This document shows, piece by piece, positions 8,362 through 16,414 of a stretch of DNA of 19,279 nt. Below the pieces are notes generated by a model that was not told the DNA's origin, did not search any database, and saw only the letters and a program-made list of their open reading frames with translations. The translations under genes were made by a program, and so were the position numbers. Origin of the DNA: Spirochaetales bacterium (GTDB taxonomy: Bacteria > Desulfobacterota_D > UBA1144); the NCBI GenBank assembly GCA_002730475.1, contig PCAG01000051.1, positions 1-19,279 of the forward strand, in the 5' to 3' direction. Position 1 is the stretch's first letter. Each line of letters begins with the position of its first letter.

Positions 8362-9798
8362 TTATTCATCAGATAATATTGATAATTGATTATCTGAATT
8401 AAACTCTACTATTTTTTCATCAACGATAAAAATATCAGAATAGGGCACTTGTCCTTTTAATCCTAAATGATCAATAAATCCAGGTGATCTAGCACGAAAC
8501 TTTAATTTTGCAATAATTTTAAAATCATTCTCAGAAATATTTGAAACATTTATTATGTAATTCTTTCTAAAGGATTCAAAAGTTGGAATAGTATAGTCAG
8601 ATTTTTTTGTCATTCGTTGGGGAGATGTTTTATATATACCTGAATCACCCTTTTCTTCATAAAATACTGTTCTGAAAATGACAAGGTCAGGATCTATCTC
8701 ATTTTTTGGATCAATACTGAAATCATATAATTCGTTATTCTCATTTACAAAACCAGTTTGATATATAGTATCATTTTCTGATAAAACTTTTATGTCCAAC
8801 CATAGTTCTCTTGCAAATGTAGCGCCAGAAGGAAGGTTATGACCTGCACGATTAAATACTTCCACTTCAAATTTTATTTTATTTTGTTCAGTTATTAACG
8901 CTAAATCATTGATATTTAGATTTGCAGTTTGTTCTAATAATCTTTTTATTTCGTTTCTTTGGAGATCTTTATGTGGAAAAGCTGTTCTGGCTTCATCTAT
9001 TCCTGCGAAGAAATGTCGGTGTAAATTATATCTTTTTTTTGCCTCAGGGAATAATTTTGGATCTACTGCAAAACCTTCATATGACTCCATATGACACTCT
9101 TGACAGGCAAAATTACTGGTCTTGTACTTTGAACTTTCCCACTCTGAAAAAGTTACTTCAGCATTATTTCCATCAACTAATAAATTATGACAAGGAAGAC
9201 ATGTCTCAGATGTAGAAAAGTCTTTAATATATACGGATTCATGAAAAACATTAGGTAAAGGATCATTTATACTACCATACATCTTATTACTTGGGTCAAT
9301 ATGGTATTTCACCACATTAAATAAGAATTTTTTTGTATTTATATTGGGCGTACCTGAGGTATGTATCATGGCATGGCAAAATGAGCAACCAACCCCTTCA
9401 GTTACTTGATTGGGTAATTTTTGGGAATTTTTAAATGTTAATTCATCAGGCTTTGATATGAGATTAGTTGTATATGCAACAGGACTATGGCATTCAATAC
9501 AAAATTGTCCAAGGTCTTCACCTTTATCTTTATGATAATTCTGTTCATTGGTATTTATTGCAAAAAAAACAGGATCTTTAAAAGCATAGGCATGCATTGA
9601 ACTTGACCACTCTAAATAATGCTGAGGATGGCATGACTGGCAACTTTCAGCAACTTGAAATTGATCAATTTGATAGGGGTTTTCTGAATAAGGAGTATAG
9701 CTAGAGGACCTTTTATTATAATTATAATGGAAATATAAAACAGTAATTATAAATACCGATAAGGCAATCGTAGCATTTTTTCTATTATTTTTTATCAT
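8362..9798 (-). CDS. Five-heme c-type cytochrome (cytochrome c554-like)
   Basis: The 478-aa protein has an N-terminal membrane anchor or uncleaved signal (about 8-27) and five CxxCH heme-binding motifs: Cys53 (CQSCH), Cys100 (CIECH), Cys138 (CSFCH), Cys200 (CLPCH) and Cys232 (CQECH). His residues suited as distal ligands include His69 and His260/262. The C-terminal half holds RAGHNLPSGATFARELWLDI (317-336), a motif that I associate with multiheme cytochromes of the c554/nitrite-reductase-related group. The role should be periplasmic electron transfer; the redox partner cannot be told from sequence. The start is weak: no Shine-Dalgarno is visible and the T-tract of a terminator hairpin ends about 10 nt upstream of the ATG. 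It is unusual as the leading gene of a peptidase operon; whether it serves respiration linked to peptide oxidation is inference. Confidence 0.88.
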   Translation of the reverse strand: MIKNNRKNATIALSVFIITVLYFHYNYNKRSSSYTPYSENPYQIDQFQVAESCQSCHPQHYLEWSSSMHAYAFKDPVFFAINTNEQNYHKDKGEDLGQFCIECHSPVAYTTNLISKPDELTFKNSQKLPNQVTEGVGCSFCHAMIHTSGTPNINTKKFLFNVVKYHIDPSNKMYGSINDPLPNVFHESVYIKDFSTSETCLPCHNLLVDGNNAEVTFSEWESSKYKTSNFACQECHMESYEGFAVDPKLFPEAKKRYNLHRHFFAGIDEARTAFPHKDLQRNEIKRLLEQTANLNINDLALITEQNKIKFEVEVFNRAGHNLPSGATFARELWLDIKVLSENDTIYQTGFVNENNELYDFSIDPKNEIDPDLVIFRTVFYEEKGDSGIYKTSPQRMTKKSDYTIPTFESFRKNYIINVSNISENDFKIIAKLKFRARSPGFIDHLGLKGQVPYSDIFIVDEKIVEFNSDNQLSILSDE

Positions 9799-14411: not shown

Positions 14412-15110
14412 TTGGACACAAAAATATTTATAGACTCAATTAAACAGAAATATAAATTTTATACAAATAAAGAAGTTGCCGAATATTTTGGCGTTACTCG
14501 TTCAAGAGTTAGTCAATGGCTGAATACTAATAAAATACCAAAAAGATATATTGATAAAGAAAGATATATTGAGGAAGAAAAAATAAATCATCATAATGAT
14601 ACTGAAATAATAGATTATAAAAAAATTATAAAAAAACAGCTTAATCATATTGAGTTATTAGAAGAGAGAATAGAATTATATAAATTTAAAAGGGAAACCT
14701 TTATTAAAGAAGTTCACGAAAATTGGGATTATGATGTGAAAATCTCTTTCATATTTAACTCCCTTAGAAAAACTCTACCAGAAGAGGTAATTACTTCTAG
14801 TGTTGAAGTCAAAAAATTAAATGATTATTTAGGATATACTCGAGAAGAATTCAAAAATAATATTCTGTCTTGGTTAAATAGTCCAATGGTTGATAAAAAA
14901 GAAGTTCTCAAACTGTATACTCTATCTGAGGAAAGAAGGATGAATGCAATAAAGAATGAAATTGATAGCTATATTGTAAGTAATCATATCAAGTACTACA
15001 AAAAGAATGGTGATTCTGTGTGGACAATTTATAGAGCTTACTATGACCTAAATCAAAATTCTTGTATAACAAAACTTAAAATACTTCATGAAAATGCATT
15101 AGACGATTGA
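14412..15110 (+). CDS. CI-repressor-like HTH protein, putative regulator of the locus
   Basis: The 232-aa protein begins with a TTG codon, since no ATG occurs near the N-terminus; AAAAGGA sits about 8-10 nt upstream at 14397-14403. Residues 17-45 (TNKEVAEYFGVTRSRVSQWL, then IPKRYI) form a helix-turn-helix like that of phage CI-type repressors: recognition helix about 29-37, followed by the IP..Y segment typical of that family. Residues 68-100 (KKIIKKQLNHIELLEERIEL and following) look like a coiled coil, probably for dimerisation. I do not recognise the C-terminal region (about 105-232). It is lysine- and tyrosine-rich, may sense a ligand or be a second helical domain, and has no membrane segment. 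Its divergent position across a 167-bp spacer from SusC suggests control of the susCD operon, its own operon, or both. Anti-sigma/ECF control, the common SusCD arrangement, is absent here. Confidence 0.75.
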   Translation: MDTKIFIDSIKQKYKFYTNKEVAEYFGVTRSRVSQWLNTNKIPKRYIDKERYIEEEKINHHNDTEIIDYKKIIKKQLNHIELLEERIELYKFKRETFIKEVHENWDYDVKISFIFNSLRKTLPEEVITSSVEVKKLNDYLGYTREEFKNNILSWLNSPMVDKKEVLKLYTLSEERRMNAIKNEIDSYIVSNHIKYYKKNGDSVWTIYRAYYDLNQNSCITKLKILHENALDD

Positions 15111-15117
15111 GTTTTTC

Positions 15118-15840
15118 ATGCTAAAACAAATTTTATCTTTCTTCGTTTTGCTTCAAGTTGGCTTTTCTCAGCCTACAAACCCAGTTGCCACATTTTCTAT
15201 TCTTGCATATGATCCAGAAACCGGTATGGTTGGTGGTGCAGTTCAATCCAGAGTTTTTTCTGTTGGAAATGGCGTTCTTTGGGCTAAAGCTGATGTTGGC
15301 ATAGTGGCAACGCAGGCTTACGTTGATGTGAGCTATGGTCCACAAGGATTAGAGCTCCTAGAAAAAGGGCTGAACCCAGATGAAGTGGTAAAAACTTTAT
15401 TAAGGAATGACCCAGACCCCCACCCGGAAGATTGGCCCAAGCTTGCTAGGCAATTTTCTGTAATGGATGCCAATGGAAGTTTTTCAACTCACACTGGAAC
15501 CAAAACCTCATACTGGGCTGGGCATAAATATGGTAAATACTCAAGTGCTCAAGGTAATATTTTAGCAAGTGAAGATGTTGTTAATGATATGATAAGTGCC
15601 TTTGAGAAAACTAAGGGTCACTTATCTATGCGCCTTTTACACGCACTTGAAGCTGGACAAAAAGCAGGTGGCGATACCCGAGGAATGCAATCTGCTGCAA
15701 TATTAATTGTAAAAAAAGATGGTGGTGTTTGGCTAAATAATGATGTGGTATTACGACTTCAGGTAGATGACAACCCTGAACCCATCAAAGAATTAAGAAG
15801 GCTAATTGAGAAAGCACATGAGCGATTTAACTGGAAATAA
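15118..15840 (+). CDS. Secreted DUF1028 family protein (Ntn-hydrolase-like)
   Basis: The 240-aa protein has a signal peptide (MLKQILSFFVLLQVGFSQ) and then a complete DUF1028 domain: TFSILAYDPETGMVGGAVQS (25-44), VGNGVLWAKADVGIVATQA (49-67), YGPQGLELL, the variant DPDPHPEDWPKLARQFSVMD, WAGHKYG, QGNILASEDVV, LLHALEAGQKAGGDTRGMQS and LNNDVVLRLQVDDNPEPIKE. The family is, to my recollection, placed by fold with Ntn hydrolases; its substrate is unknown. Conserved Thr25 of TFSI lies a few residues after the predicted signal cleavage, where an Ntn nucleophile would need to be exposed, but this is speculation. The gene starts 7 nt after the HTH gene with no good Shine-Dalgarno, suggesting coupling, and ends 7 nt before the GTG start of the selenoredoxin. 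A hydrolase acting on peptide or amide bonds would suit the locus. Confidence 0.9.
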   Translation: MLKQILSFFVLLQVGFSQPTNPVATFSILAYDPETGMVGGAVQSRVFSVGNGVLWAKADVGIVATQAYVDVSYGPQGLELLEKGLNPDEVVKTLLRNDPDPHPEDWPKLARQFSVMDANGSFSTHTGTKTSYWAGHKYGKYSSAQGNILASEDVVNDMISAFEKTKGHLSMRLLHALEAGQKAGGDTRGMQSAAILIVKKDGGVWLNNDVVLRLQVDDNPEPIKELRRLIEKAHERFNWK

Positions 15841-15847
15841 TTTTAGA

Positions 15848-16414
15848 GTGAAGACTTTACTTTTTCCTCTAATTCTCATCGCAGGTCTCTGTTATGGTTG
15901 CGAGGATAAACCTGATGAGCAAGTTATTGATCCAAATAATCTATTTCAATTTATTCTTAAAGATGAAAATCCAAATTCTAAGAGTTTTGGAAGTAATATT
16001 GGCCCAGCCAAATATATAGGAAGAGTTTCTGTTTATTATTTTGGTGATCCTGGATGAGGAATGTGTCGAAGCCGGTTCGGTGTCTTAGATTATATGTTTG
16101 ATGATATAAATAAAAATGATAAAAATAATATTGTCTTTTTAGGTATAAGCAATAAAAGTCACTCAAAAGTTGAGATACCTAAGATGATCGAAGGAAAAAC
16201 ACTCCCTTGGGCGCATGACAATGCGAGTCAAGATGTTTGGACCAAGTGGGATGTTCGATTAAGAGATTTATACATACTCAATGAGGAGGGTATATTATAC
16301 GGTATGGTTAATTTGACCGGTTATGACCCTGACCCTCAGATAAATGGCGGTCGTAACTATAATGACCTAAAGCAACTTATTCTAGATGCAAAAAAGACTT
16401 CTAGCTCTAATTAG
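15848..16414 (+). CDS. Thioredoxin-fold lipoprotein with in-frame TGA: probable selenoprotein (UxxC)
   Basis: Reading through the TGA at 16055-16057 gives one 188-aa protein. Residues 1-18 from the GTG start are a signal with Cys18 (AGLCYGC, then ED), a plausible lipoprotein site. Residues 58-100 follow the TlpA/redoxin pattern: strand RVSVYYFGDPG, then U70-G-M-C73, helix RSRFGVLDYMF, and strand NNIVFLGIS. Residues 110-155 (LPWAHD, WDVRLRDLYILNEEG) match the later half of the fold, although the usual cis-proline before the strand is absent. The TGA falls exactly on the first redox cysteine. TGA is not tryptophan here: tryptophans are TGG throughout and the HTH gene ends in TGA. A nonsense mutation or sequencing error from TGT/TGC is the main alternative. 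The start could instead be ATG 15818, overlapping DUF1028 by 23 nt. Role: periplasmic or surface thiol-disulfide or peroxide chemistry, inferred. Confidence 0.75.
16063..16083 (+). promoter_or_regulatory. Candidate bacterial SECIS hairpin inside the redoxin gene
   Basis: Immediately after the in-frame UGA the mRNA can fold in two exclusive ways. Form A pairs GCCG (16071-16074) with CGGU (16078-16081) around a GUU loop starting 18 nt after the UGA. Form B pairs GUGUCGAA (16063-16070) with UUCGGUGU (16076-16083), four of the pairs being G-U, around GCCGG. Position and a G at the start of the loop fit known bacterial SECIS rules best in form A. The stretch is locally GC-rich inside an AT-rich gene. 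Confidence 0.5.

Follow-up and report, generated by a model that had tools for sequence, protein, structure and literature searches.

The family to which the gene described here belongs is catalogued by NCBIfam as NF053656, 'TUGYCR motif thioredoxin fold (seleno)protein' (redoxin_TUGYCR). Neither that accession nor the TUGYCR name was found mentioned in the literature searched, which also yielded nothing linking UGMC, UGTC, UGYC or GDPGU motifs with a selenoprotein. The probable counterpart is 'Prx-like 2' of the Global Ocean Sampling (GOS) data, described as a marine-enriched family with a UxxC motif (U, selenocysteine, Sec), several UxxU members, fused domains, low similarity to pfam04592 and 100 counted Cys homologs (Zhang and Gladyshev 2008, PMC2398784). 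The gene in question is a redoxin gene on the forward strand of a 19,279-nucleotide stretch of Spirochaetales bacterium DNA (contig PCAG01000051.1; hereafter the window), and its reading frame is interrupted by a single TGA. The comparative evidence presented below makes it very likely that it encodes a thioredoxin-fold selenoprotein of the cell envelope with a UxxC active site, probably membrane-anchored, whose UGA would be decoded by SelB via a hairpin within the coding sequence.

NF053656 resembles Prx-like 2 in its marine abundance, in having both UxxC and UxxU members, in its fused domains and in its weak similarity to pfam04592, and differs in that no Cys form was seen here among the rows listed, as against the 100 of Prx-like 2. 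The two are probably the same family, judged by description rather than by sequence. PF04592 itself is matched at an E-value of 0.01 or better by six of the 58 members of our alignment, and the window protein is not one of the six. A possible alternative identity is the Sargasso 'thiol-disulfide isomerase-like' family, placed under PF13905 (PMC9312934), a model that the window protein reaches at 23.6 bits (cut-off 27). GOS Trx-like 3 was also considered as the family identity and dropped, since no feature connects the two. SelL carries UxxU, which resembles the sister group described below, and SelL and SelL-related proteins have the thioredoxin fold in common with the present family; the SelL-related model NF040769, however, gives no match for the window, and the highest score among ten family members is 19.1 bits (cut-off 120). 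Relatives were also sought among viral contigs (three pattern matches, none confirmed), phage records (none found) and solved-structure sequences (three matches only, with E-values of 0.82 and worse).

The reading frame and its active site

The TGA is the sole interruption of the frame 15848–16414, and translating it as U gives the active-site segment VYYFGDPG-U-GMCRSRFGVL. This confirms the observation of the first-pass annotation that one in-frame TGA stands where the first Cys of a CxxC-type active site belongs. The features of the gene are as follows.

15818–16414, + strand: Sec redoxin coding sequence, 198 codons from ATG, with Sec80, Cys83 and a TAG stop (TGA-as-U translation, NF053656 match, fragment P0195)
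15848–15850, + strand: GTG start proposed earlier, less likely; a Lys codon stands there in the relative L001
15899–15901, + strand: codon of Cys28, a possible lipid-modified Cys (LCYG↓C), read from sequence
16055–16057, + strand: in-frame TGA, read as selenocysteine, Sec80 (conserved TGA, hairpin, selection)
16064–16066, + strand: TGT, codon of Cys83, the resolving residue of UxxC (all 58 alignment rows have Cys or Sec here, with U written as C)
16262–16264, + strand: Arg, residue 139 of P0001 (alignment A4), preceding strand 140–144 of the structure model

The joined protein scores 147.1 bits against NF053656 (cut-off 100), with residues 34–181 matched to model positions 3–146 of 146. Its GUGMCR retains the U-x-x-C-R core of the motif that gives the family its name, with G and M in place of T and Y. 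Pfam matches stay below their cut-offs (Thioredoxin_8, 23.6 bits against 27; AhpC-TSA, 13.8 against 26). The gene is a member of an already catalogued family: NCBIfam lists it as NF053656, with GOS Prx-like 2 as its probable equivalent, and this leaves the earlier suggestion of an undescribed Sec redoxin subfamily unsupported. Several members run past the redoxin domain (L017, L019, L020, L021, L024 and others, with frames of ~510–535 aa), and the domain seems often to be fused to further domains.

The frame had been given as 188 codons from GTG 15848. The true start is probably ATG 15818, because 33 of the 35 database N-terminal fragments of 79–83 aa have GDPG as their C-terminal end, and because the window's own fragment, P0195, begins at that ATG, from which 79 aa lead to the codon before the TGA. 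Near the N-terminus, LCYG↓C, which we take to be a lipobox, is a plausible one, with an atypical Cys at −3. The absence of the cis-Pro, also remarked on earlier, holds: at residue 139 of P0001 an Arg is kept in at least 90% of the 58 rows and presumably occupies the thioredoxin cis-Pro slot. ResA-type thiol-disulfide oxidoreductases and peroxiredoxins differ from the present family in two respects: here Sec would attack and Arg would replace the cis-Pro.

Conservation of the TGA and selection on both sides of it

A genome scan returned two relatives, L001 from a Marinimicrobia metagenome-assembled genome (75% identity) and L002 from TMED6 (33%), and in each of them this codon is likewise TGA. 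Among 245 genomes of the relatives' phylum, 80 have a match and 47 exceed the NF053656 cut-off. Each of the 50 loci above the cut-off in these 47 genomes shows a single TGA in the frame of the match; the 50 are distinct loci counted from rows, and the two matches that fell into two pieces were each counted once. A larger figure, 92 of 92, is biased in that its lower-scoring rows were chosen for showing a TGA, and 50 of 50 is the unbiased one. The stop-free rows are G129 (68.2 bits, positions 52–145, at a contig start), G125 (59.2 bits, 43–145, the continuation of the frameshifted L113), G166 (34.4 bits, 40–126), the trailing halves of the two matches that were split, and further rows of at most 33.5 bits.

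Selection acts alike before and after the TGA. Between the window and L001, the nonsynonymous and synonymous differences (pN/pS) are 0.145/0.794 over the 67 codons before it and 0.135/0.749 over the 114 codons after it, with synonymous sites near saturation in this comparison. Because the contrast is equal on both sides, the codons downstream are under the same constraint as those upstream, and hence translated in frame. The prediction that homologs would have Cys or TGA at this column and conserved sequence on both sides is borne out, by TGA.

That the TGA might instead be a true stop, in a pseudogene, through an assembly error or between two proteins of which the second restarts at ATG 16061, is suggested by the ATG lying 3 nt past the TGA and by the 79-aa and 114–117-aa pieces in the database. 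We consider it very improbable, given that the TGA is retained in all 50 loci, that selection is alike on its two sides, that the hairpin described next covaries, and that ATG stands at the restart codon in only 11 of 85 UxxC loci.

A SECIS-type hairpin within the coding sequence

Downstream of the TGA lies a candidate selenocysteine insertion sequence (SECIS).

16068–16084, + strand: SECIS-type hairpin (covariation on alignment A3; local fold of 16055–16088 at −4.7 kcal/mol)

Its loop, GGUUC (16074–16078), starts 16 nt past the UGA; if the G-C pair closes the loop, this becomes GUU at 17 nt. Alignment A3 holds 81 of the 85 UxxC loci, leaving out L113, whose frame shifts past the motif, one row containing an N and two duplicate rows. 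Seven pairs (columns 13–19 with 25–31) are formed in 78.3% of cells, compared with 57.2% in shuffled alignments; covariation is 0.545 against 0.178 and double-change cells number 127 against 41.9, and for each of these three measures none of 500 shuffles was as high. Sliding the hairpin from its position lowers the covariation to 0.10–0.18, and RNAalifold recovers five of the pairs, with double changes in each.

The signal is unlikely to be caused by protein constraint, because the synonymous third base of a Gly codon itself pairs with codon 5. Of 69 rows with Gly at codon 8, 62 have a wobble base there that pairs with base 2 of codon 5 (shuffle mean 35.2; 0 of 10,000 as high), as do 15 of 19 when one row per cluster is kept (7.7; 2 of 10,000 as high), whereas a control Gly codon gives no signal (16 of 58; shuffle mean 19.1). 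Codon choice is also skewed here: Phe7 is TTC in 76 of 85 loci, compared with 117 of 486 nearby in the same genes, and Arg6 is CGG in 74 of 85, compared with 18 of 221.

A published model of bacterial SECIS elements has a loop of 3–9 nt, an upper stem of 4–16 bp, a G in the first two loop positions, a distance of 16–37 nt from the UGA and a minimum free energy of −7.5 kcal/mol or below (PMC13188914). The geometry found here falls within these ranges, with a loop of GGUUC (or GUU), a family stem of up to 7 bp and a distance of 16 (or 17) nt. The window gave nothing from Rfam at the gathering score and nothing from ARAGORN.

Selenocysteine machinery in related genomes

The genomes that carry L001 and L002 (G001 and G002) both possess a tRNA-Sec with a TCA anticodon, selA, selB and selD. 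Their selD genes (L055 and L054, respectively) have an in-frame TGA themselves and probably encode Sec-containing SelD. Across the phylum, selB or tRNA-Sec is present in 45 of the 47 genomes with the family above cut-off, compared with 147 of 198 without the family (p = 6e-4). These counts rely on the 47-genome set, as a wider one of 67 takes in G129, whose matched piece lacks a TGA. The selB list comprises 167 genomes (E-value 1e-64), 166 of them above the cut-off. Counts of tRNA-Sec were made at an E-value of 1e-9, where the weakest listed score is 54.8 bits; close to its cut-off, the model picks up tRNA-Ser as well (ARAGORN identifies L039, at 47.4 bits, as a tRNA-Ser).

Database proteins and the tryptophan reading

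The expectation that annotation pipelines would split the gene proved correct, as the protein database holds it as 79-aa N-terminal and 114–117-aa C-terminal fragments, and eight of nine listed proteins from one search begin at the Met after the TGA. The N-terminal fragments represent up to 269 contigs (P0178), and the window's P0195 represents 49. Full-length entries mostly have Trp at the Sec slots: a set of 127 aligned proteins contains 114 WxxW and three WxxC, besides nine starting past the Sec slot and one without the region, and a second set of 77 contains seven WxxC, one SxxS (P0135) and 69 without the slot. Among the rows listed (120 of 893 matches in one protein search), the family showed no Cys form.

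The Trp residues would be genuine if the organism read UGA as Trp. We give this very little credence, since TGA stands at these positions in highly similar genes (P0130 is 95.5% identical to L059, and P0013 93.9% to L103), so that the Trp most likely arises from TGA being read in gene calls with translation table 4. In addition, a helix-turn-helix (HTH) gene upstream, one of ten window frames checked, stops at TGA, with a counterpart of similar length in L001 (228 vs 232 aa), and the relatives possess tRNA-Sec, selA, selB and selD.

Three further observations concern these entries. The W-bearing full-length relatives (P0012–P0129, P0130–P0136 and P0153) are in many cases annotated with PF00404 (dockerin), and P0014 scores 24.1 bits against Dockerin_1 (cut-off 22.9). 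The Ser at both active-site positions of P0135 possibly reflects an inactive form or a sequence error. P0010, in which a redoxin N-terminus is joined to a piece resembling the HTH gene, looks like a chimera of assembly or gene calling.

A sister group with two TGAs

The same phylum contains a sister group with a UxxU motif.

L006, L107–L111, L114, L115, L119–L138: UxxU sister redoxins, with the hairpin 9 nt further downstream than in the UxxC group

Two TGAs are present in 28 of 28 loci examined, which were selected because the genome scan showed two; alignment A6 comprises 23 distinct rows of these. Every one of the 138 cells of the hairpin (columns 23–28 with 33–38, loop AGUU) is paired, and its covariation is 0.538, compared with 0.259 for 500 shuffles, none of which was as high; three pairs show double changes against 1.7, a number reached by 75 of 500 shuffles. 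Its loop starts 16 nt past the second UGA and 25 nt past the first, compared with 16 nt past the sole UGA of the UxxC group. Since the UxxC and UxxU proteins align codon by codon around the motif, the hairpin of the latter sits three codons farther downstream, and one SECIS may serve both UGAs. We put at roughly even chances the fuller proposal of a Sec-only redoxin family (no Cys form seen) in which UxxC gave way to UxxU together with a three-codon shift of the SECIS, with one hairpin acting on UGAs at 25 and 16 nt. None of the paper titles among the matches listed concerned a single bacterial SECIS that serves two UGAs, which is no proof of absence.

Gene neighborhood

Two genes precede the redoxin gene.

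14412–15110, + strand: HTH gene (PF12728, 30.4 bits), order the same in L001, TGA used as stop
15118–15840, + strand: DUF1028 gene (PF06267, 223.3 bits), overlapping the redoxin start by 23 nt, order and overlap the same in L001

The redoxin gene is probably co-transcribed with both, as judged from a gene order kept in one relative (L001), and the HTH gene is likely the first of the transcription unit. In L001, the sole syntenic relative found, the redoxin gene is accompanied by the HTH and DUF1028 genes and not by the SusCD/peptidase locus that the first-pass annotation had offered as context; the S9 peptidase gene of G081 and G082 has other neighbors than in the window. A cytochrome c554-type gene (PF13435, window 8362–9798) adjoins the S9 and S8 peptidase genes and the SusC/SusD pair.

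Discussion

The reading of TGA 16055–16057 as selenocysteine is strongly supported by comparative data, namely the TGA of the orthologs, the Sec machinery of the relatives, purifying selection past the TGA and a covarying SECIS-type hairpin. None of the findings named at the outset as speaking against it (Cys codons here in the same species, a genome without Sec machinery, decay past the TGA in relatives) turned up, with the machinery judged from relatives' genomes.

Several results do weigh against this reading. The hairpin of the window is weak: its −4.7 kcal/mol over 34 nt falls short of the −7.5 of the bacterial model, it contains a G.U pair and an A.G mismatch, and a 56-nt segment folds at −8.5 kcal/mol into a different structure. 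Single-sequence folds are no better than shuffles (z-scores of −0.11 for the window, 0.27 for L001 and 0.02 for L002). In the alignment, two of five measures are not above shuffles (six pairs with double changes vs 5.8, and 20 pair types vs 18.6), and the outermost pair forms in only 36 of 81 rows. As for the machinery, the evidence for the window's species comes from relatives' genomes. Two of the 47 family genomes show neither selB nor tRNA-Sec at the cut-offs used (G145, with a tRNA-Sec score of 45.6 bits, below cut-off, and G171, with no match). Judged by the neighboring S9 peptidase gene, the genomes nearest to the window are G082 (82%) and G081 (two pieces, 81% and 85%), of 0.9 and 1.4 Mb, respectively; both contain selB, but neither gives a tRNA-Sec match at 1e-7 or a match to the family.

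Recoding of the UGA as Cys or by another near-cognate tRNA, which the Cys slot of the fold might suggest, is hardly credible, being made unnecessary by the SECIS-type hairpin and the relatives' Sec genes and finding no Cys form of the family among the rows listed.

Under the selenocysteine reading, SelB with Sec-tRNA(Sec) would decode the UGA guided by the hairpin inside the coding sequence, with its loop 16 nt downstream, as the comparative evidence suggests. Family chemistry further suggests that, outside the cytoplasm, the Sec80 selenolate would attack a disulfide or peroxide, after which Cys83 would resolve the selenenylsulfide and a partner protein would reduce the enzyme.

The family itself is already catalogued, and the parts of this analysis worth keeping are the evidence for the SECIS and the shift of the hairpin in the UxxU group. 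This gene and its near relatives occur frequently in sequence collections, where they are filed as two broken proteins or as WxxC/WxxW proteins. Once read correctly, they give an uncultured marine lineage one more redox step, which depends on Sec and is probably located in the envelope. A ready test of how one SECIS may place two selenocysteines is offered by the UxxC/UxxU pair, which, if the proposed shift is true, would be a natural experiment on the spacing rule of SelB decoding.
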